Positions 2,176 through 29,126 of a stretch of DNA of 32,094 bases are shown piece after piece; the first letter of the stretch is position 1, and each line of letters opens with the position of its first letter. Origin of the DNA: a virus; the IMG/VR virus record IMGVR_UViG_3300031787_000528, positions 1 through 32,094 of that record, one strand, 5' to 3'. The notes beneath the pieces were generated by a model. The model ran no database searches. It had not been told where the DNA came from and saw only the letters and a program-made list of their open reading frames with translations. A program made the translations under genes and the position numbers.

Positions 2176-2569
2176 CCCAATCAGGGGCGTATCAGGTCCT
2201 GGCAAATTCTCTGTTCGTACAGATTTACCAGCATCACAAAACTACGGTGACCGTAAGGCTATGCAAGAACAAATAGCAGGAGCATCTACCGCTAGAACAG
2301 CAGATGTTCGCGGATTACCTACAGGTGAAATTCAGGCTGCAGCACAGGCTGCACCACAACCACCTATTACAGAATTGTTTGCACCAACACAACGCCCTGA
2401 TGAACCAATTACTTCAGGTGTTGCAGTAGGCCCAGGTCCAGGACCAGAGGTAATGGGTTATGCAGGACAGTCAGAAAAACTATCTGACATTTTATCTCAA
2501 ATGCTTCCATACGATACAGACGGTGAAATCGCAATCCTTTATCAGCAAGCCGTAGCCAGAGGTCTATAA
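2165..2569 (+). CDS. Hypothetical structural-region protein (134 aa)
   Basis: Starts at ATG behind a strong CAGGAGGAAACCG ribosome-binding site that lies inside the end of the previous gene, and ends with TAATG shared with the start of the 1611-aa gene. The protein is Pro/Ala/Gln-rich and low-complexity in the middle (AAAQAAPQPPITELFAPTQRP, then VGPGPGPEV) with a short helical C-terminus (SDILSQMLPYDTDGEIAILYQQ). It may be a flexible internal virion or assembly protein. I recognise no domain. Confidence 0.6.
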   Translation: MVDNPIRGVSGPGKFSVRTDLPASQNYGDRKAMQEQIAGASTARTADVRGLPTGEIQAAAQAAPQPPITELFAPTQRPDEPITSGVAVGPGPGPEVMGYAGQSEKLSDILSQMLPYDTDGEIAILYQQAVARGL

Positions 2570-5500
2570 TGGCAGAAACGCCAAAGAACTCTAACCTTGC
2601 ACAAGCAGCATTTCGTGCAGGTCTTAATCCGTCGCAGACTCGTCAAATTGATGGTCTTGCTTCAGCGCTATCTACACACCAGCGTTTATCGGATTTGCCT
2701 AAGCAGTATGCCTACGATGAGTTTAACAAGTTACCTAACAACAAGAAGCAGTCGCTAGTAGCACTGACTGGTACTAACAAACCAGACTCAGATGAGCCTA
2801 ACCGTTCTTGGTTGGAAACAGGTGCTCACTATGCATTCACTCCTTTTAAGGTAGCAGCAAAGACTTTGTTTGATGCACTCGATTACGCATCAGATACTAT
2901 GACTCGCGTCTACCGTACTGGTGCTATCGCTGCTAATGAGAACATTAACTTCGGTGATGCCTGGGGTAAAGCAGGTCGTGATGGTGAGAACGTATTTATC
3001 CAAGATCGTATTAACACTGCAGTATCTCGCTATGGAACAGCACGTGTAAACGTAGCAAAACGTATTGCTGCAGGTGTTGCTCCAGAGATTATCTTTGCAG
3101 AAGCACAGAACGAAGAAGAAAAGCGCATTGCAGCAGAAGCACAGCAGAGCGAAACAGGCGACATTATGGATCCGCTACTTCGTGATGCTGTAGCAGAAGT
3201 AAACGCTGCTAAGTATTCTCCAGGTCGTCAGATTGCAAACCTATTTTTAACTAAAGACTTAGAAGGTCAAGGTCTACTATATTCTTGGATCTCAGGCTCA
3301 GTAGATGCAACCTACCGTTTATTTATGGATCCAACACTTGCTCTAGGCAAGGCACGCAAGGTTTACCTTGGTGGATCACAGGCTCTTAAGGTTACTGGCA
3401 AGTATGCAGCAACTGCAAAACTTGGCAGTGCTGAGAAGGTATCTAAGTATTTTGATACTACAGATATTTTTGGTACAAAGAATGTACAGAACTTATGGAC
3501 AGATTACACAGATCGTTTTACGAAGTATGTCGCTGCAAAGAACTCAGGTAAGACTGAGGATATCGTTGCAGCACGTACTGCGTTAAATGACCTTGCACCA
3601 GAACTACAAGATGACTTCATTGTTTCTTTCAAGTCTTTTGGCGAGAAAGAATTTGGTGGTAAGTGGGACCTAGATACCGCTAAGGCTTATCTATCAGATG
3701 CCTCAAAGGTTGAGCCTATGCTCTACGGTCAGGCTGGCGCACGTATTAAGTTAGCACCACGTATGTCTCCTGCACGTAAGGCACGAGTACTTGCACTAAC
3801 TACAGGACGACGTGTATTTGATTTAGATAAAGACTCTCGCGCTCTTATCGAAACAATGGAACTAACAGATGACACAGCATTACTTCAGGCTGTTGTAGGT
3901 AGTGAGACACTATCTCCAGTACAAGCAGGTGCAGAGTTTGCAGGCAAGATTATTGAAGGCCGTCAGAACATTAAGCGATTTACTCCAGAGTACTTTGCTA
4001 ATCGTATTGATCGCATCAAGGCAAAGTTCACACCTATTGCATCTCTAGTAGATGATGAAGCCTTTGACCATACATCAAAGACAGCAGCAAAAGATTTTTT
4101 CAATTACTCACGTATGGCGTTAGGTTCATACCACGCTAAAGCATTTACTGAGATCTATTCATCAGCAGATCTAGGTCAACGCAAAGCAATGATGAAGGGT
4201 ATCCAATCAACAGTTGGAAACCTTATCGGACTAGACAAAACTGAGGGTGGACGTAAGTTACTCAACGCTATTCGAGATGACGTATTCTCTGGCGCTACAT
4301 ACTCAGCACGTTCTGCAGATGGATCTATCCCATCAGAGGTTGACGGTATTGACAGTGCACTTTACTTTGCACAGACATCTAATGTGTCTCGTGTTATCGG
4401 TCTACGTGATATGCAGCGCTTTGCAGGACGTGAGTCCTTCCTAAGCCGTGTATTGGGTATGCAGTACAAAGAAGGTGCAGAGCGCACAGTAGATGCTTGG
4501 ACATTTGGAACTATCGCAGGTCCTCGTTTCCCAGTACGTAATGCTATTGAAGATTACACAATGGGTATTCTTAATGGTCAATCTCTTCTTAGAACTGCTC
4601 GTTCTCGTCGCACAGCAACTAAGATTCGCCTAGGCTCTGGACAAGACCTAGGTATGATTAACCGTGTTGCTAAGCGCAAGGATCGTGAGTATTTTAATAC
4701 TCGCCTTGCTGCAGTCAATGGCGAAGTAGGTGCTACTAATGATCTTGTTAAGCGTGGCATTCTTTCTAAAGAAGAAGTTGCTGCCTATCGTGGATTAACA
4801 CCACGTCAAAGATTAGAGCAACGCCGTATTATTATGGCAGAGGCACTACTGGGTTCTAAGATTGATGATGTTGCTAACGCAGATATTGTTGACAAACTGC
4901 CAGGACACATTAAGGATTTTGTTAAGTACGGCAATTTAGAAGCACTACTGCGTGGAGCAGGAGAAGGTGCATCTAATGCAATTAGTGGGTTAAACGCATC
5001 ATCACGTGCTGTAGCAACTGCAGACCGTAATGGAAAGACCGTTGCACTTACATTTAATGGCACACCAATGCGCCCAATAAGTGGCAGTGATTTTGGTCAG
5101 AAGTCTTTAATTGATGACCAAGGTAAACTTGCTTGGGGCTGGAACATTATTATCCGTTCAACCGATGATATCGGTGAACGTGCTATCCAGTTATTTGATG
5201 GCAACATAACACAAGAAAATTTTATTGCTCAGTTGGCACCACACATCAAATCATTTGGCGATGACTTAACAACATTTATGCGCTACACAAAGCCAGGTTA
5301 TACACCTGAGCAGCACGCAGCAGCAGTCTATGATGACCTTAAAAACTTGTTTAGTCGTCAAGATGGCAAGTCTGTTAATATGGATTTGCTAGGTAAAATC
5401 CGTAAGGTAGATGAAAAAGGTAACGCCTTTATTGATTTAGAGGACTTTAACCTAGAAGATCTACCAACAAACATTGAAGATCTACCTGCATCTGTAGCAG

Positions 5501-7404
5501 GACCTACATTTATGCCAGTAATGGAAAGCAAGAACATCCTTACTGACCTATCTAAGCGTGGATGGACCTGGTTAGGTGAGTCAAACGCACGTTTCTCACG
5601 TGAACCATTGGTCGTTAACGCAGCAGTTCGCTACTATGATGACTTAAATGCACCAGGTGGCTATGCAGAAGACCTAATTAACCAGTACACTAAGGGAATT
5701 AAAGACCCTGAAGCGCTACAAGCAGCAACAGATGCAGCAAAAGCACAAGTTGTACGCATATCTGAAGAACTTGCACTGGAATCTACACTTGCATTTGTGG
5801 ATAACCCTGCACTTCGTACACAGTTAGCGTGGTCTGCACGTAACTTTGCTCGTTTCTACCGTGCAACTGAAGACTTCTATCGTCGTTTGTACCGTACTGC
5901 TAAGTATAACCCAGAGGCTATACAAAAAGCAGCGCTAACTTATGAAGGCGTAAGCCATTCTGGCTTTGTACAGAAGGATGACCAGGGAGAAGCATACTTC
6001 GTTTACCCTGGATTGGCTCCAGTGTATGGTGCAATGAAGAAAGCACTAGATGTATTCGGTCTTGGAGATAAGTTCGTAGCACCAATGCCACTAGAGTTTA
6101 GTGCAAAGTTAAAGATGCTTACACCATCCTTTGATCCTGAGTCTTGGATGCCGACATTCTCTGGTCCACTAGCAGCATTACCACTTAATACGATCTATTC
6201 TCTAGTACCAAGCCTTGCTAGGTCAGAGAATGCAATCGTTGCTCGTATCGGTAAAGAACTAGGTACAGTAGAACGTGCAACTCTAGGTCCTATTGGACAA
6301 GATCAGCCGTTTGTTAACGCATTGCTACCAGCACACGTAAATAGATTCCTTGCTGCTATGAATAAAGATGAGCGTGAGTCTCAGTATGCATCAGCATTCC
6401 GTAAGGCTGTTACATACCTAGAAGCAGCAGGTGCAACACCAGGTGCAGATGCATCTCCAGGTGAGATGAAGAAGTATCAAGAGTCATTAGAAACAACTGT
6501 CCAGAGTATTCTTGGTATTCGTTTCGTTGCAGGATTCTTTGCTCCAGCAAGCCCAACTGTATCTCTAAAATCAGATATGGCTGAGTGGGCAAGAGATAAT
6601 GGAACTGTTAACTTCAAGCAGACCTGGAACAAACTGATTAACAAGTACGCTGAGCAGGGATCTGAGGATCCATACGGTGAGGCTATGGCAGATTGGGTGA
6701 AATACTTCCCTAATCAAGTTCCATTTACTGTTAATGAGTCAGATCCACAGGTATTGCCATACTTCCAGTCCAGTAATGCAGCATCAAAGTGGGTAGAAGA
6801 TAACCGTTCTTTGGTTAAGAAGTACCCACAGGGTTCAGCATTCTTGATTCCAAATACTGGTGAGTTTACCTACGATGCATACCAGACATTGATGAATGAA
6901 GGCTATCGCCAGAAGAAGTTAATCGGTGATTACCTTAAGGAAGTATCAGTAGCCAAGGATGAGCAACTCTATTACTCACAAAAGGCTATCCGCGATGAGG
7001 CACTAACAGGTGCCTTTACAGATCGTGAACGTACTATCGTTAATGACAACTGGCAGATGTGGTCAAAGGAATTTCTAGCAGCACGTCCATTACTTCGTAT
7101 GGAGTTTGCTAGTGCAGCAGAAAACACTATTAAGCGTGACGCAGCATTTGCTGATTTACGTGAGATGATTAAAGAACCAAACCTTACTGGTCCTACTATC
7201 AGCCGTTTGCGTGAGATGGTACGTGAGTACGATGACTATGAGATCATCACTACTACTCAGTACAACTCAAGTTCAGACCGCGATATTAGAATCCGTAAAT
7301 CCTACAAAGAATCGTTACGACTACGCTTGCAGGAGATTGCAGCAGGAGATCCTAGTGCAACATCTACATACAGCGTTCTATTTAGCAGATTGATTGGTGA
7401 CTAA
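2569..7404 (+). CDS. Giant internal virion / ejection-type protein (1611 aa)
   Basis: The largest gene in the window (4.8 kb). The product is mostly alpha-helical, without a visible signal peptide, long coiled coil or the repeated hydrophobic pattern of a classical tape measure, and I see no lytic transglycosylase or protease motif. It begins right after the upstream stop (TAATG) and ends by overlapping the next ATG in the same way, so it sits in a coupled cluster of four large genes between portal and scaffold. In short-tailed phages such large helical proteins near the portal are usually injected with the DNA, forming a channel across the envelope; that role is inferred from size, composition and position only. 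Alternatives are a large polyvalent toxin/enzyme-carrying virion protein or a displaced tape measure. Codon use matches the neighbours and the frame is intact. Confidence 0.6.
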   Translation: MAETPKNSNLAQAAFRAGLNPSQTRQIDGLASALSTHQRLSDLPKQYAYDEFNKLPNNKKQSLVALTGTNKPDSDEPNRSWLETGAHYAFTPFKVAAKTLFDALDYASDTMTRVYRTGAIAANENINFGDAWGKAGRDGENVFIQDRINTAVSRYGTARVNVAKRIAAGVAPEIIFAEAQNEEEKRIAAEAQQSETGDIMDPLLRDAVAEVNAAKYSPGRQIANLFLTKDLEGQGLLYSWISGSVDATYRLFMDPTLALGKARKVYLGGSQALKVTGKYAATAKLGSAEKVSKYFDTTDIFGTKNVQNLWTDYTDRFTKYVAAKNSGKTEDIVAARTALNDLAPELQDDFIVSFKSFGEKEFGGKWDLDTAKAYLSDASKVEPMLYGQAGARIKLAPRMSPARKARVLALTTGRRVFDLDKDSRALIETMELTDDTALLQAVVGSETLSPVQAGAEFAGKIIEGRQNIKRFTPEYFANRIDRIKAKFTPIASLVDDEAFDHTSKTAAKDFFNYSRMALGSYHAKAFTEIYSSADLGQRKAMMKGIQSTVGNLIGLDKTEGGRKLLNAIRDDVFSGATYSARSADGSIPSEVDGIDSALYFAQTSNVSRVIGLRDMQRFAGRESFLSRVLGMQYKEGAERTVDAWTFGTIAGPRFPVRNAIEDYTMGILNGQSLLRTARSRRTATKIRLGSGQDLGMINRVAKRKDREYFNTRLAAVNGEVGATNDLVKRGILSKEEVAAYRGLTPRQRLEQRRIIMAEALLGSKIDDVANADIVDKLPGHIKDFVKYGNLEALLRGAGEGASNAISGLNASSRAVATADRNGKTVALTFNGTPMRPISGSDFGQKSLIDDQGKLAWGWNIIIRSTDDIGERAIQLFDGNITQENFIAQLAPHIKSFGDDLTTFMRYTKPGYTPEQHAAAVYDDLKNLFSRQDGKSVNMDLLGKIRKVDEKGNAFIDLEDFNLEDLPTNIEDLPASVAGPTFMPVMESKNILTDLSKRGWTWLGESNARFSREPLVVNAAVRYYDDLNAPGGYAEDLINQYTKGIKDPEALQAATDAAKAQVVRISEELALESTLAFVDNPALRTQLAWSARNFARFYRATEDFYRRLYRTAKYNPEAIQKAALTYEGVSHSGFVQKDDQGEAYFVYPGLAPVYGAMKKALDVFGLGDKFVAPMPLEFSAKLKMLTPSFDPESWMPTFSGPLAALPLNTIYSLVPSLARSENAIVARIGKELGTVERATLGPIGQDQPFVNALLPAHVNRFLAAMNKDERESQYASAFRKAVTYLEAAGATPGADASPGEMKKYQESLETTVQSILGIRFVAGFFAPASPTVSLKSDMAEWARDNGTVNFKQTWNKLINKYAEQGSEDPYGEAMADWVKYFPNQVPFTVNESDPQVLPYFQSSNAASKWVEDNRSLVKKYPQGSAFLIPNTGEFTYDAYQTLMNEGYRQKKLIGDYLKEVSVAKDEQLYYSQKAIRDEALTGAFTDRERTIVNDNWQMWSKEFLAARPLLRMEFASAAENTIKRDAAFADLREMIKEPNLTGPTISRLREMVREYDDYEIITTTQYNSSSDRDIRIRKSYKESLRLRLQEIAAGDPSATSTYSVLFSRLIGD

Positions 7405-9754: not shown

Positions 9755-11101
9755 ATGTCAGCAAGAGACGCAGCAAATACTGCACGTTTAGCCGCTGCTA
9801 AACAAGACAAGGCAGCAGAATCACGTGCAGCATCATCAGCAGCAGCAGCATCAGCAGCACGTACTGCTGTTACTAAACTGACATCAGGTCAAACATTAAC
9901 CGCTGCTGAAAAGAAGACACTTGGTTTACCTACAACACCAGCAGGACAAACAGTAAAGAAAGGTCCAACAGGATCAACAGGACCCACAGGTAGATCTACA
10001 GGACCAACAGGAGGTCCTACAGGTAGATCTACAGGACCAACAGGAGGAGCAACAGGTCCGACAGGACCAACAGGACCTGTAGGTAGAACTGTTGTAAATA
10101 CTTATGAAGATCCAGCAACTGGTGATATTTATGCAATCTATAGTGATGGTACTAGAGAATTACTTTCTCAAGGAACAAAACTTTCTGATGCGGCTACAGA
10201 AGAAGCGCGACGTGCATTACTAGCACAACAAGAAGCAGCACTTGCACTTGAAGAGAAAAAGCGTGAGGGGCAGTCTGCGTACTCGCTATTGTTCTCAGAG
10301 TTTGATCGCTATGGATTAGGTGTTCTAGTAGAACCACTTAAGAAGTTTATTGAAGAAGGTTTATCTCCAGCAGAATTTACTATTCGCCTACGTGAGACAG
10401 ATGCCTATAAGAAGCGCTTTGCTGCTAACGCACAGCGTGTGGCTAAAGGTTTACGTGCACTATCTGAGGCTGAGTACATCGGTACTGAAGACCAGTATCA
10501 GGATGTAATGCGTCGTTACGGTATGCCTGAGTCCTATTATGCAAAGGGTGACCTTGGTGTACAAAGTGGATTTGAGAAGTTCCTAGCAGGAGATGTATCT
10601 GCAGTAGAACTAGAAGACCGCATTCAAACAGCACAAAATCGTGTTGTTAACTCTAACCCAGAAGTTGCTAAGGCACTTAAAGAATTTTATCCTGGTATCT
10701 CTAATGGAGATATCTTGGCTTATGTATTAGATCCAGCCAACGCTATTGAACAGATCAAGCGTAAGGTAACTGCTGCTGAAATCGGTGGCGCTGCAATTCA
10801 ATCGGGACTTAGAACTGGTATGACTCGTGCAGAGGAACTTGCTGCTGCTGGTGTCAATAAGGAAATGGCACAAAAGGGTTTCCAGACAGTTGCAGAAGTT
10901 GCACCACGTGGTGGAGTACTAGCAGAAATCTACGGTGAATCACCATACACACAGACAACTGCAGAGCAAGAAGTCTTTGGACTTGCTGGATCAGTGGATG
11001 CTGCAAGGCAGCGTAGGAAACTGACACAACTAGAGACTGCCGCATTTAGCGGTAGTGCTGGAGCAGGAGCGATAGCACGTGATCGTGCTGGTGCCTTCTA
11101 A
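9755..11101 (+). CDS. Putative internal virion protein with collagen-like segment (448 aa)
   Basis: Starts three bases after the previous stop, behind a GGGGTAAGCA context. The Ala-rich helical N-terminus (1-60) leads into a short interrupted collagen-like stretch (about 70-110: [12 protein letters not shown] repeats), then a helical domain with PAEFTIRLRETDAYKKRF (about 205-225), which echoes the 531-aa protein, and a Gly/Ala-rich end. A collagen-like linker inside a gene of the ejection block is unusual; it could act as a flexible spacer or trimerise. The alternative is that this is a surface-exposed head or tail fibre protein encoded out of the usual place. It is the last gene before the structured leader. 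Confidence 0.55.
   Translation: MSARDAANTARLAAAKQDKAAESRAASSAAAASAARTAVTKLTSGQTLTAAEKKTLGLPTTPAGQTVKKGPTGSTGPTGRSTGPTGGPTGRSTGPTGGATGPTGPTGPVGRTVVNTYEDPATGDIYAIYSDGTRELLSQGTKLSDAATEEARRALLAQQEAALALEEKKREGQSAYSLLFSEFDRYGLGVLVEPLKKFIEEGLSPAEFTIRLRETDAYKKRFAANAQRVAKGLRALSEAEYIGTEDQYQDVMRRYGMPESYYAKGDLGVQSGFEKFLAGDVSAVELEDRIQTAQNRVVNSNPEVAKALKEFYPGISNGDILAYVLDPANAIEQIKRKVTAAEIGGAAIQSGLRTGMTRAEELAAAGVNKEMAQKGFQTVAEVAPRGGVLAEIYGESPYTQTTAEQEVFGLAGSVDAARQRRKLTQLETAAFSGSAGAGAIARDRAGAF
9986..10047 (+). repeat. Tandem 33-bp duplication in collagen-like segment
   Basis: An identical 29-base unit occurs at 9986-10014 and 10019-10047 (it begins ACAGGTAGATCTACAGG), so the period is 33 bp, or eleven codons (GRSTGPTGGPT). 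It looks like a recent in-frame tandem duplication in the collagen-like linker of the 448-aa protein. Confidence 0.85.
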
Positions 11102-11105
11102 ATAA

Positions 11106-11198
11106 CAAGCCTGCCAATGGGACGACTGGTCCATTGGAGTGAGATTAAAACCAGTAGCAAGAGCCACACCACTTTCCCCAAGGTGAATGTGAGGCTTG
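11106..11198 (+). ncRNA. Structured leader RNA with H-type pseudoknot upstream of scaffold gene
   Basis: The 128-base gap between the ejection block and the scaffold start has no credible ORF but pairs almost completely. P1: CAAGCCT (11106-11112) with AGGCTTG (11192-11198). S1: CCAATGG (11114-11120) with CCATTGG (11131-11137). S2: ACTGGT in the S1 loop (11125-11130) with ACCAGT (11150-11155), giving a classic pseudoknot with a 4-nt loop (11121-11124), no base between the stems, and a 12-nt A-rich loop (11138-11149). P3: CACA/TGTG (11165-11168 with 11188-11191) plus an inner CACTT/AAGGTG stem with one bulge, abutting P1. No U-run follows, so it is not a simple terminator. It probably acts in the scaffold/capsid mRNA as a leader, riboswitch, RNA-stability or processing element. 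I do not recognise its class. Confidence 0.65.
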
Positions 11199-11229
11199 CG
11201 TCAATCTAACAAGAATGGGAGAAGGACCT

Positions 11230-11697
11230 ATGTCCAACTATGACTACGAGGATGATGACTTCGATACGGACTCATCAGGCAATGACCTTGTAAAACAACT
11301 GCGTAAGGCTACTAAGCAAAAAGACAAGGAACTGTCCGAACTAAAGGCACAGTTTGAAAGTCTTAACAAAGCGCAACGTGACCGAGCAATCAAAGATGCC
11401 CTCGCAAGTCGCGGGGTAAACAGCAAAATTGCTGCATTTATCCCACAGGATATAGACCCAACTGAAGAGTCTGTATCTAAATGGTTAGAAGATTACTCCG
11501 ATGTGTTCGGAATTGAAACTAACCAAACCCAGGCAACACCTAATGTTAATCCAGCCGATGCTGCTGCATATAAGCGTATGACTAATACTGTCGAAACAGG
11601 AGTCTCTCCTGAACACAACGACAACATTATGCAGAAACTTATGAATGCAAATAGCAGAGAAGAACTGGATGAAGTCATTAGATTGTCTGGACTCTAA
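11230..11697 (+). CDS. Capsid scaffolding protein
   Basis: The 155-residue product starts with a very acidic stretch (YDYEDDDFDTDSSG), followed by a Lys/Glu-rich probable coiled coil (about residues 20-60, QLRKATKQKDKELSELKAQF) and a helical C-terminus. This composition and the place directly before the major capsid gene are typical of scaffolding proteins, which shape the procapsid and then leave. I chose the ATG at 11230 because GGAG at 11218-11221 sits eight bases upstream; an in-frame ATG at 11215 would put the ribosome-binding site inside the gene. The structured leader just upstream suggests that its expression, with the capsid gene, is separately controlled. Confidence 0.75.
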   Translation: MSNYDYEDDDFDTDSSGNDLVKQLRKATKQKDKELSELKAQFESLNKAQRDRAIKDALASRGVNSKIAAFIPQDIDPTEESVSKWLEDYSDVFGIETNQTQATPNVNPADAAAYKRMTNTVETGVSPEHNDNIMQKLMNANSREELDEVIRLSGL

Positions 11698-11726: not shown

Positions 11727-12905
11727 ATGGCAACCCCACAAGGTACCCCTACCACCACGTCTAGCATCAGCAACCTCGTACAAGCAGCATACGATCAGTA
11801 TGTAAGAATGGCACTACGTTCCATTCCTGTTATGCGTTCACTTGCAGATGTTAAGCCAGTGCAACAGGCAATGCCAGGATCATCAGTTGTTTTCTCAATC
11901 TATTCAGATTTGGCTCAGGCTACTTCTACATTGACAGAAACATCAGATGTATCAAGCATTGCATTAGGTAACCCATCACAGGTTACAGTAACACTGAACG
12001 AATACGGTTCAGCAGTTACAACAACAAAGAAGTTAAACCTAACTTCATTTAACGATGTTGACTCAGCACTTGCTGACATCATCGCTTACAACGCAGCAGA
12101 TTCTATTGACAACGTTGTAGGTCAGGTCCTCTCAGCAGGAACTAACGTGATCTACTCAAACGGTCCAACAGGAACTACTCCAACTTCATCAGCAGGAGTT
12201 CTACCAGTAGACACAATGACAGTTGCAGACATCCGCAACGCTGTTGTATCACTACGCACAAACAAGGCATTGCCTCGTATGGGCGAACTATATGCTGCAT
12301 ACCTACACCCACGTCAGTCAGCCGATCTTCGCGCTGAAACTGGTACAGGTGGATTCCAGGAACTAACAAAGTACGTTGAGCGTACACCGTTCGTTGCTGG
12401 TGCAGTAGGCGTTATCGAAGGCGCTTTCATCGTTGAGACACCACGTGTCCTAAACGGTCTAAGTCTTGCTACAGGTATTACACCTACAGTTTCCGTAACT
12501 AACAAGGAGTTAACATCTAACGTTGCAACTCTAACAACTGCTGTGGCTCACGGCCTAGGCGTTGGACAGGTTGTAACTGTTTCTGGTGTAGATGCAACAT
12601 TCAATGGTACTTACACAATTACCGTTGTAGGTTCAACAACTACATTCTCTTATGCCAAGACTGCTACTAACGTAACATCAGTAGCAGCAACAGGTACTGT
12701 TACATTTACCAACAACTACCGTGCGATTATCGCAGGTCGTGAAGCATTGGCTGAAGCACAAGCAGCAGATATCTCAACCGTTATCGGTCCAGAGATTGAT
12801 GCGCTACGTCGTTTCCGCACAATCGGTTGGTACTACTTCGGAGGCTTTGCACGCCTACGTGAAGCAGCACTCTTCCGCATTGAGTCTGCAGCAACAAACG
12901 GATAA
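11727..12905 (+). CDS. Major capsid protein, N4-gp56-like, with inserted Ig-like domain
   Basis: Forms the head shell. The 392-aa protein follows the scaffold gene and ends with a segment (IGPEIDALRRFRTIGWYYFGG) characteristic of the N4 gp56-type capsid family as I remember it; the N-terminal part (QYVRMALRSIPVMRSLADVKP, then NEYGSAVTTTKKLNL) also fits a HK97-fold coat protein. At about residues 254-328 (12486-12710) an extra Thr/Val-rich beta domain is inserted just before the conserved C-terminus, with the core HGLGVGQVVTVSGVDATFNG. The same domain occurs in the 735-aa tail protein. Such insertions usually project from the capsid surface as decoration or adhesion domains (inference). A strong hairpin follows the gene. 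Confidence 0.85.
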   Translation: MATPQGTPTTTSSISNLVQAAYDQYVRMALRSIPVMRSLADVKPVQQAMPGSSVVFSIYSDLAQATSTLTETSDVSSIALGNPSQVTVTLNEYGSAVTTTKKLNLTSFNDVDSALADIIAYNAADSIDNVVGQVLSAGTNVIYSNGPTGTTPTSSAGVLPVDTMTVADIRNAVVSLRTNKALPRMGELYAAYLHPRQSADLRAETGTGGFQELTKYVERTPFVAGAVGVIEGAFIVETPRVLNGLSLATGITPTVSVTNKELTSNVATLTTAVAHGLGVGQVVTVSGVDATFNGTYTITVVGSTTTFSYAKTATNVTSVAATGTVTFTNNYRAIIAGREALAEAQAADISTVIGPEIDALRRFRTIGWYYFGGFARLREAALFRIESAATNG

Positions 12906-14769: not shown

Positions 14770-17070
<2,301 letters not shown>

Positions 17071-28761: not shown

Positions 28762-28775
28762 TAAGCGGTGCGTTA

Positions 28776-29126
28776 ATGGCTAACAAGAATGGAAGAAAAG
28801 GTTCTCAGTTTGAGACAGATGTTATGAAATGGTTACGCAGCAAAAGCGTAATAGCAGAGCGTCTGACTAAGGCTGGGGCAAAGGATGAGGGAGATATGGT
28901 TGTTATCATATCTGGAGAAACCTACATCCTTGAACTCAAGAACAGGCAGACCCTTTCCCTGCCTGAGTTCTGGAGAGAAGCGCAAGTTGAGGCGCTTAAC
29001 TACGCAAAGGCACGTGGTATTGGGGAAGTACCTTTGTCTTATGTTGTAGTTAAGCGTCGCAACGCACCAATAGATCAGGCTTGGGTAATCCAAGACTTAA
29101 CTCAATGGCTAAAGGAGAAACAATAA
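28776..29126 (+). CDS. Holliday-junction-resolvase-like PD-(D/E)XK nuclease (116 aa)
   Basis: Start at ATG 28776 (MANKNGRKGSQFE); the frame is open further left within the helicase gene, but that part looks unnatural (SDRRSRCTRQSI). The order of motifs fits archaeal Hjc-type or phage resolvases: GSQFETDVMKWLRS (the Glu helix), KAGAKDEGDMVV (Asp), YILELKNRQ (E-x-K), and the helix WREAQVEALNYAK. It probably cleaves branched replication intermediates before packaging. Ends one base into the next ATG (TAATG-type overlap). Confidence 0.7.
   Translation: MANKNGRKGSQFETDVMKWLRSKSVIAERLTKAGAKDEGDMVVIISGETYILELKNRQTLSLPEFWREAQVEALNYAKARGIGEVPLSYVVVKRRNAPIDQAWVIQDLTQWLKEKQ

Follow-up and report, generated by a model that had tools for sequence, protein, structure and literature searches.

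Control of the ratio of scaffold to capsid protein in tailed phages is, to our knowledge, known for few systems. In phage P22, the scaffold protein gp8 is autoregulated, with its synthesis controlled post-transcriptionally relative to that of coat protein; we know of no defined structured leader RNA for the P22 scaffold, whereas at the locus described here the RNA is defined and its regulator is proposed. In the single-stranded RNA phages, the coat-binding hairpin of MS2 is the operator of the replicase gene, and at a head-scaffold gene we know of no other RNA operator of the kind proposed below. The gene 32 operator of T4, T2 and RB69 resembles our locus in that a small H-type pseudoknot lies in a phage 5' leader upstream of the ribosome-binding site, one cistron of a longer transcript is controlled at translation (as we propose for the scaffold leader), and RNA is processed just upstream of the pseudoknot (as inferred here for the tRNA-bearing lineages described below) (PMC3014915). 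That operator has a feature of its own, an A+U-rich repeat without structure that spans the ribosome-binding site and serves the cooperative binding of gp32. PreQ1-I-type riboswitches are likewise compact pseudoknot RNAs, and their output is the masking of the Shine-Dalgarno (SD) sequence, as is proposed here.

The window (the whole stretch of viral DNA that was analysed, 32,094 nucleotides) contains a leader RNA element of about 95 bases that is a member of an RNA family, carried by a large group of actinobacterial viruses and absent from Rfam 15, and that, judging from sequence comparison, probably controls how much scaffold the virus makes. Our main reading, to which we give a probability of about 0.62, is that this RNA acts in cis as a translational operator of the scaffold cistron that would mask the scaffold SD sequence. 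The T4 gene 32 pseudoknot operator is the nearest functional analogue, but the scaffold leader is not a member of that family, because the A+U-rich repeat is lacking: no UUAA(A) repeats were found between the pseudoknot and the ribosome-binding site, a stretch made up of the P3 hairpin and a short linker. The scaffold leader differs further in its second hairpin with an AGC/WGG internal loop, its SD-complementary C-rich loop and its hairpin at the AUG, in the gene that it precedes, in the phylum of its hosts and in matching no Rfam model. If our reading is true, it would add a second phage case, widespread and unrelated to the first. The parts of the locus, with the evidence for each in brackets, are as follows.

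9755 to 11101, + strand: gene directly upstream of the leader (phrog_8424, E 7e-95, unknown function)
11107 to 11200, + strand: whole leader RNA (match to covariance model R1, 99.9 bits, the sequence being within the R1 training set)
11114 to 11120, + strand: 5' arm of P1, CCAATGG (5 of 7 pairs changed on both sides in 60 relatives)
11125 to 11129, + strand: 5' strand of the pseudoknot helix, ACTGG, inside the P1 loop (covarying pairs)
11131 to 11137, + strand: 3' arm of P1, CCATTGG (covariation in 60 relatives)
11138 to 11150, + strand: A-rich third loop of the H-type pseudoknot, AGTGAGATTAAAA (sequence; several A and G positions nearly invariant)
11151 to 11155, + strand: 3' strand of the pseudoknot helix, CCAGT (covarying pairs)
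11157 to 11161, + strand: 5' arm of P3, GCAAG, the true outer helix of the third hairpin (100% paired; 4 of 5 pairs changed on both sides)
11162 to 11164, + strand: 5' side of the internal loop, AGC (invariant in 60 relatives)
11165 to 11168, + strand: 5' arm of P3b, CACA (99.6% paired; 2 of 4 pairs changed on both sides)
11176 to 11179, + strand: C-rich apical loop, CCCC, complementary to the SD sequence (CCC in the apical loops of relatives; type switches with SD type)
11188 to 11191, + strand: 3' arm of P3b, TGTG (covariation in 60 relatives)
11192 to 11194, + strand: 3' side of the internal loop, AGG, mostly WGG in relatives (comparison of relatives)
11195 to 11199, + strand: 3' arm of P3, CTTGC (covariation in 60 relatives)
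11217 to 11221, + strand: scaffold SD sequence, GGGAG (invariant in 72 freshwater leaders)
11224 to 11227, + strand: 5' arm of the start-codon hairpin, GGAC (invariant in 72 freshwater leaders)
11230 to 11697, + strand: scaffold protein gene, likely start ATG 11230 (phrog_7813, E 1e-48)
11232 to 11235, + strand: 3' arm of the start-codon hairpin, GTCC, formed by the G of ATG and the Ser codon TCC (invariant in 72 freshwater leaders)
11727 to 12905, + strand: major capsid protein gene (phrog_1357 major head protein, E 6e-72)

The stop codon of the upstream gene ends 12 bases 5' of P1. The gene at the scaffold position, before the capsid gene, is annotated as scaffolding protein in the phages Dennebes and JPandJE, and the window's scaffold protein is 34% identical to its counterpart in phage E7 (LanE43AprE7). 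A pattern search of the + strand at the leader found neither a promoter nor a terminator, the latter in keeping with the first-pass annotation of this DNA, which had described a compact pseudoknotted leader RNA of no known class, without a terminator, ahead of the scaffold and capsid genes. That description held: a comparison with Rfam, which the annotation had recommended, matched no family at either the gathering or the relaxed threshold, the best matches by E-value being unrelated fragments, and in relatives only tRNAs matched. Neither ARAGORN nor RF00005 detected a tRNA in the window; the tRNAs of relatives adjoin the element and do not lie inside it. DNA similarity in phage records was limited to chance matches, and our literature searches found nothing on this RNA. 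An apparent second copy at window positions 28769 to 28797 was rejected as chance: over 27 bases it partly matches the SD region, but it lies where a different gene begins and lacks the structure.

Folding energy alone was insufficient to establish the element, because the single-sequence value was unremarkable (z = -1.3, with 18 of 200 shuffles as stable); covariation does establish it. In 60 diverse leaders (freshwater plus E7) aligned by sequence alone, the 21 pairs of P1, the pseudoknot helix, P3 and P3b were 96.9% paired and 14 of them were changed on both sides, giving a covariation score of 0.466 compared with 0.204 in shuffles (0 of 500 as high) and at most 0.107 in slid controls. A separate alignment of the Beephvirinae, phages of Streptomyces, recovered the same architecture with entirely different helices (98.8% paired, 18 double-changed pairs, score reached by 0 of 500 shuffles), and another of the soil group gave 93.8% pairing and 11 double-changed pairs (again 0 of 500), with the pseudoknot helix itself invariant there. 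A further 100 matches aligned to R1 were 96.6% paired with a score of 0.554, a value that weighs less since that alignment was fitted to the model. The pseudoknot helix reads ACUGG/CCAGU in the window, GCCAG/CUGGC in Stella, GCUGG/CCAGC in Dennebes, GUCAG/CUGAC in Immanuel3 and ACCAG/CUGGU in E7, and is flipped to CCAG/CTGG in L022 and L281. G-U pairs were frequent (UG 26 of 60 in P3, GU 16 of 21 in P1, for example), which argues for an RNA of the + strand rather than a DNA element. Within the P3 internal loop, the AGC side and the GG of the opposite side were invariant in 100 freshwater and E7-type leaders, and the loop appeared as AGC/UGG in nearly all leaders of Streptomyces phages and the soil group. 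These alignments indicate that the secondary structure, pseudoknot included, is conserved through compensatory changes.

All pairings named in the first-pass annotation are present letter for letter in 11106 to 11198, and most of them survived comparison. The 7-bp stem of 11114-11120 with 11131-11137 (P1) was borne out by comparison with relatives, as were the third hairpin and the pseudoknot loop lengths, at about 4, 0-1 and 12-13. Of the six pairs proposed for the loop helix, the five of 11125-11129 with 11151-11155 covary, and the sixth, a U-A pair, could form in the window's own member. The proposed closing stem, CAAGCCT/AGGCTTG, was not kept: its outer pairs formed in only 36 to 42 of 60 relatives, its covariation score (0.101) was below that of its own shuffles (0.129), and what remains of it in relatives is an invariant CC/GG core that is uninformative. 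Bases assigned to it belong elsewhere, since GCAAG/CTTGC (11157-11161 with 11195-11199) is paired in 60 of 60 relatives; the closing stem is, on this comparison, a local coincidence, and the global architecture in which it encloses everything is wrong, the covarying outer helix at that place being P3. In the window's member the stem (11106-11112 with 11192-11198) competes with P3 and could be a local alternative fold, one that relatives do not keep.

The family was delimited by several searches. A capsid search of viral contigs gave 80 loci. Wherever both flanking genes were present (74 loci), 117 to 140 bases separated the scaffold gene from its upstream neighbour, and this gap held a visibly conserved element. 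A scaffold-protein scan, an RNA-pattern scan and capsid scans with two distant relatives brought the collection to 405 loci with 277 different leaders. Carriers comprise freshwater contigs, the named relative Planktophila phage LanE43AprE7 (OX376640; PMC10202952), soil contigs, Streptomyces Beephvirinae (Stella, Abafar, Dennebes, Manuel, JXY1, Immanuel3, FlowerPower and others) and two Streptomyces assemblies. The latter two are phage-like contigs of 38 and 46 kb (L455 and L456, from Streptomyces sp. t39 and S. hoynatensis) that carry the RNA with scaffold and capsid genes, have no obvious tRNA, and have AGC/AGG internal loops, as in freshwater phages.

Two covariance models were used, R1, built from freshwater leaders plus one E7-type sequence, and R2, built from 15 soil leaders only, as R1 alone was too narrow for the Beephvirinae. 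With no freshwater sequence in its training set, R2 located the window element at 11108-11201 (E 5e-4) and found E7 (7e-6), Stella (1e-8) and both Streptomyces contigs. The first-pass annotation had held that relatives with the same gene order but without the RNA would count against it. None was found among close relatives, every one examined having the RNA directly upstream of its head-scaffold gene, and each model gave exactly one match per locus, always the scaffold leader (R1 in 100 of 100 loci, R2 in 58 of 58). When hits to the RNA pattern were chosen regardless of genes, 105 of 118 lay directly before a scaffold gene and ten were too near a contig end. The three remaining hits (L136, L157 and L197) were set aside; the structure is missing from them and they look like chance. 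Two distant capsid relatives, about 29% identical, Streptomyces phage BRock (which has a short leader) and Bacillus phage Pony, were both negative with R1 and thus mark the edge of the family. The window has all of the family's features: P1 with a loop pseudoknot, P3 with AGC/WGG, a C-rich loop and a position before the scaffold SD sequence.

The tip of P3 is C-rich everywhere, and its sequence follows that of the SD element. All 29 leaders with the SD sequence UAGGA have a CCUA loop, in which case UAGGAG replaces GGGAG; leaders with GGGAG have a CCCC loop and none has CCUA, and those with AAGGG also have CCCC, in two cases as part of a longer CCCCUA run. (The automated loop finder misplaced about 18 loops, which were read by eye.) SD type changes at least 5 times on well-supported branches of the capsid tree and loop type follows in 5 of 5, for which a sign test on five independent switches can give p no lower than 0.0625. 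Complementarity between loop and SD sequence was greater for a leader's own pair than for swapped pairs, both overall (11.30 vs 10.98, sd 0.09, 0 of 500) and in the soil/Streptomyces group (12.49 vs 11.59, sd 0.21, 0 of 1000), by a statistic that ignores relatedness. Counting against this reading, C-rich loops and G-rich SD sequences are complementary by nature; the CCC core and the SD sequence are both invariant in the freshwater clade, which is hence uninformative, and in the E7 clade the contact could comprise no more than 3 bp, CCC/GGG. GGGAG preceded only 4 of the 31 window starts looked at, the scaffold start included. The family contains one mark of an SD-sequestering regulator, a leader segment that is complementary to the SD sequence and preserved by concerted change. 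A new conserved RNA family is demonstrated on comparative grounds, as are its pseudoknotted fold, its fixed position and its concerted change with the SD sequence.

Most members also have a small hairpin around the AUG, with arms that vary by clade and are still complementary: GGAC/GUCC in freshwater phages, GUUGCU/AGCAAC around a bare AUG in the E7 type, and GGUC/GACC, GAGUCA/UGACUC, GUCAC/GUGAC and others in soil phages. In the window this hairpin is weak (4 bp, with an energy at about the shuffled level), so that its support is comparative. It recalls the MS2 replicase operator in being small, in lying at a phage gene's start codon and in being a candidate repressor site for a virion protein, but its arms vary by clade and it is absent from most Streptomyces Beephvirinae.

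The leader folds as an H-type pseudoknot (P1 plus the loop helix) with the long P3 hairpin and its conserved AGC/WGG internal loop close behind; we propose that the C-rich tip of P3 would pair with the scaffold SD sequence as a second, long-range loop contact. With the SD sequence masked and the AUG held in the small hairpin of most members, the 30S subunit could not bind. A trans-acting factor would bind the domain formed by the pseudoknot and the internal loop, stabilising or releasing the closed state; our best guess is a head protein, which would provide autogenous control of the scaffold:capsid ratio, although a host protein or a small ligand is possible. The autoregulation of the P22 scaffold makes a head protein the first candidate. 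We infer that the contact between loop and SD sequence forms in the cell, lowers scaffold translation and is switched by some factor. A point against masking is that scaffold is needed in quantity, so that a repressor must be relieved by something. The first-pass annotation had listed a ligand sensor, an RNA-stability element, a processing signal and a translation regulator for capsid assembly as possible functions, and it is the last that the covariation of loop and SD sequence and the start-codon hairpin specifically support.

The strongest competitor, which we nevertheless think unlikely, is that the pseudoknot is a 5' stabiliser or processing boundary, forming a new 5' end after an upstream cut and shielding the scaffold-capsid message from RNases that depend on the 5' end (RNase J or E), so that head genes would be expressed above upstream genes. 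By ARAGORN, 60 of 80 soil/Streptomyces loci have a tRNA whose end lies 110 to 126 bases upstream of the scaffold start codon, and P1 follows the tRNA 3' end by 0 to 5 bases in the leaders read. The identity of this tRNA varies among nine (Val, Met, Asn, Pro, Ile, Tyr, Asp, Phe and Leu), and in Beephvirinae an array of up to about 20 tRNAs ends with it. This adjacency suggests that tRNA processing generates the 5' end of the leader in tRNA-bearing lineages, and in T4 RNase E cleaves the gene 32 mRNA at -71, a position just 5' of the pseudoknot operator (PMC3014915). However, in freshwater phages the stop codon of the upstream gene takes the place of the tRNA, the two Streptomyces contigs also lack one, and protection of the message would leave both the concerted change of apical loop and SD sequence and the AUG hairpin unexplained. 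A stabilising role and translational control could coexist. In Stella (L282:1592-3365), Abafar (L283:2109-3354) and Dennebes (L284:1317-3364), about 14 to 21 tRNA genes lie exactly between the upstream gene and the leader RNA, and tRNAs seem to insert preferentially at the leader boundary.

Another reading is a riboswitch, with the scaffold SD sequence gated by a small molecule or an ion that the pseudoknot and the AGC/WGG internal loop would bind. It would suit the compactness and high conservation of the fold, its invariant unpaired bases and an expression platform that possibly masks the SD sequence, an arrangement seen in translational riboswitches (of the preQ1-I type, PMC10622847). We consider it improbable: Rfam gave no match, clades differ at many unpaired positions other than those of the internal loop, and our scans found no copy before metabolic genes. 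Unlike in preQ1-I-type riboswitches, moreover, the SD sequence would be contacted here by a hairpin loop rather than by a ligand pocket.

It is very doubtful that the RNA acts in trans, for example as a packaging RNA that merely happens to lie before the scaffold gene. Phage phi29, a podovirus, has such a structured RNA in its pRNA, which makes loop-loop contacts. The sole carrier of the present family with a described morphology, Abafar, is also a podovirus (PMC11536984). The strict linkage to the scaffold gene and the covariation of the loop with that gene's SD sequence point to action in cis, however, and the pattern search identified no separate promoter or terminator. That these are ordinary stable hairpins without function, or a DNA-level element, would fit the weak energy z-score but is refuted by the counts (three clades show compensatory changes, G-U pairs occur, and each of the 158 loci has exactly one match), and we give it practically no weight.

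Returning to translational control of the scaffold cistron, we tentatively extend it, as a possibility we would not bet on, to an undescribed and widespread class of phage RNA operators in which a virion assembly protein would bind the leader, a switchable contact between loop and SD sequence would set the scaffold:capsid ratio, and in some lineages the 5' end would come from processing of the abutting tRNA, coupling tRNA maturation to head-gene expression. A defined RNA for which two contacts are predicted and natural variants are compensated makes control of the scaffold:capsid ratio directly testable, and cultivated carriers exist in LanE43AprE7 and several Streptomyces phages. The host of LanE43AprE7 belongs to one of the most abundant freshwater bacterial orders (PMC10202952). 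The RNA and its covariance models also provide a single-copy marker for annotating actinophage genomes.

Several other features of the window and its relatives were observed. An open reading frame of 1611 aa upstream of the head genes (2569-7404) had no PHROG match, and a collagen-like GATGPTGP repeat protein of about 300 aa is encoded at 15104-16003, with a shorter GPTG repeat in the gene at 9755-11101. In JXY1 (L286), the annotation divides the major capsid gene at 1525-2393 into two neighbouring 'major head protein' genes, which may reflect a sequencing frameshift or misannotation. Residues of about 254 to 334 of the window's capsid protein (12490-12730) form an extra segment with ~60% identity to a portion of a Microbacterium phage protein that bears the annotation major tail protein; many relatives' capsids are shorter by about the length of this segment, which may be a swapped surface domain.
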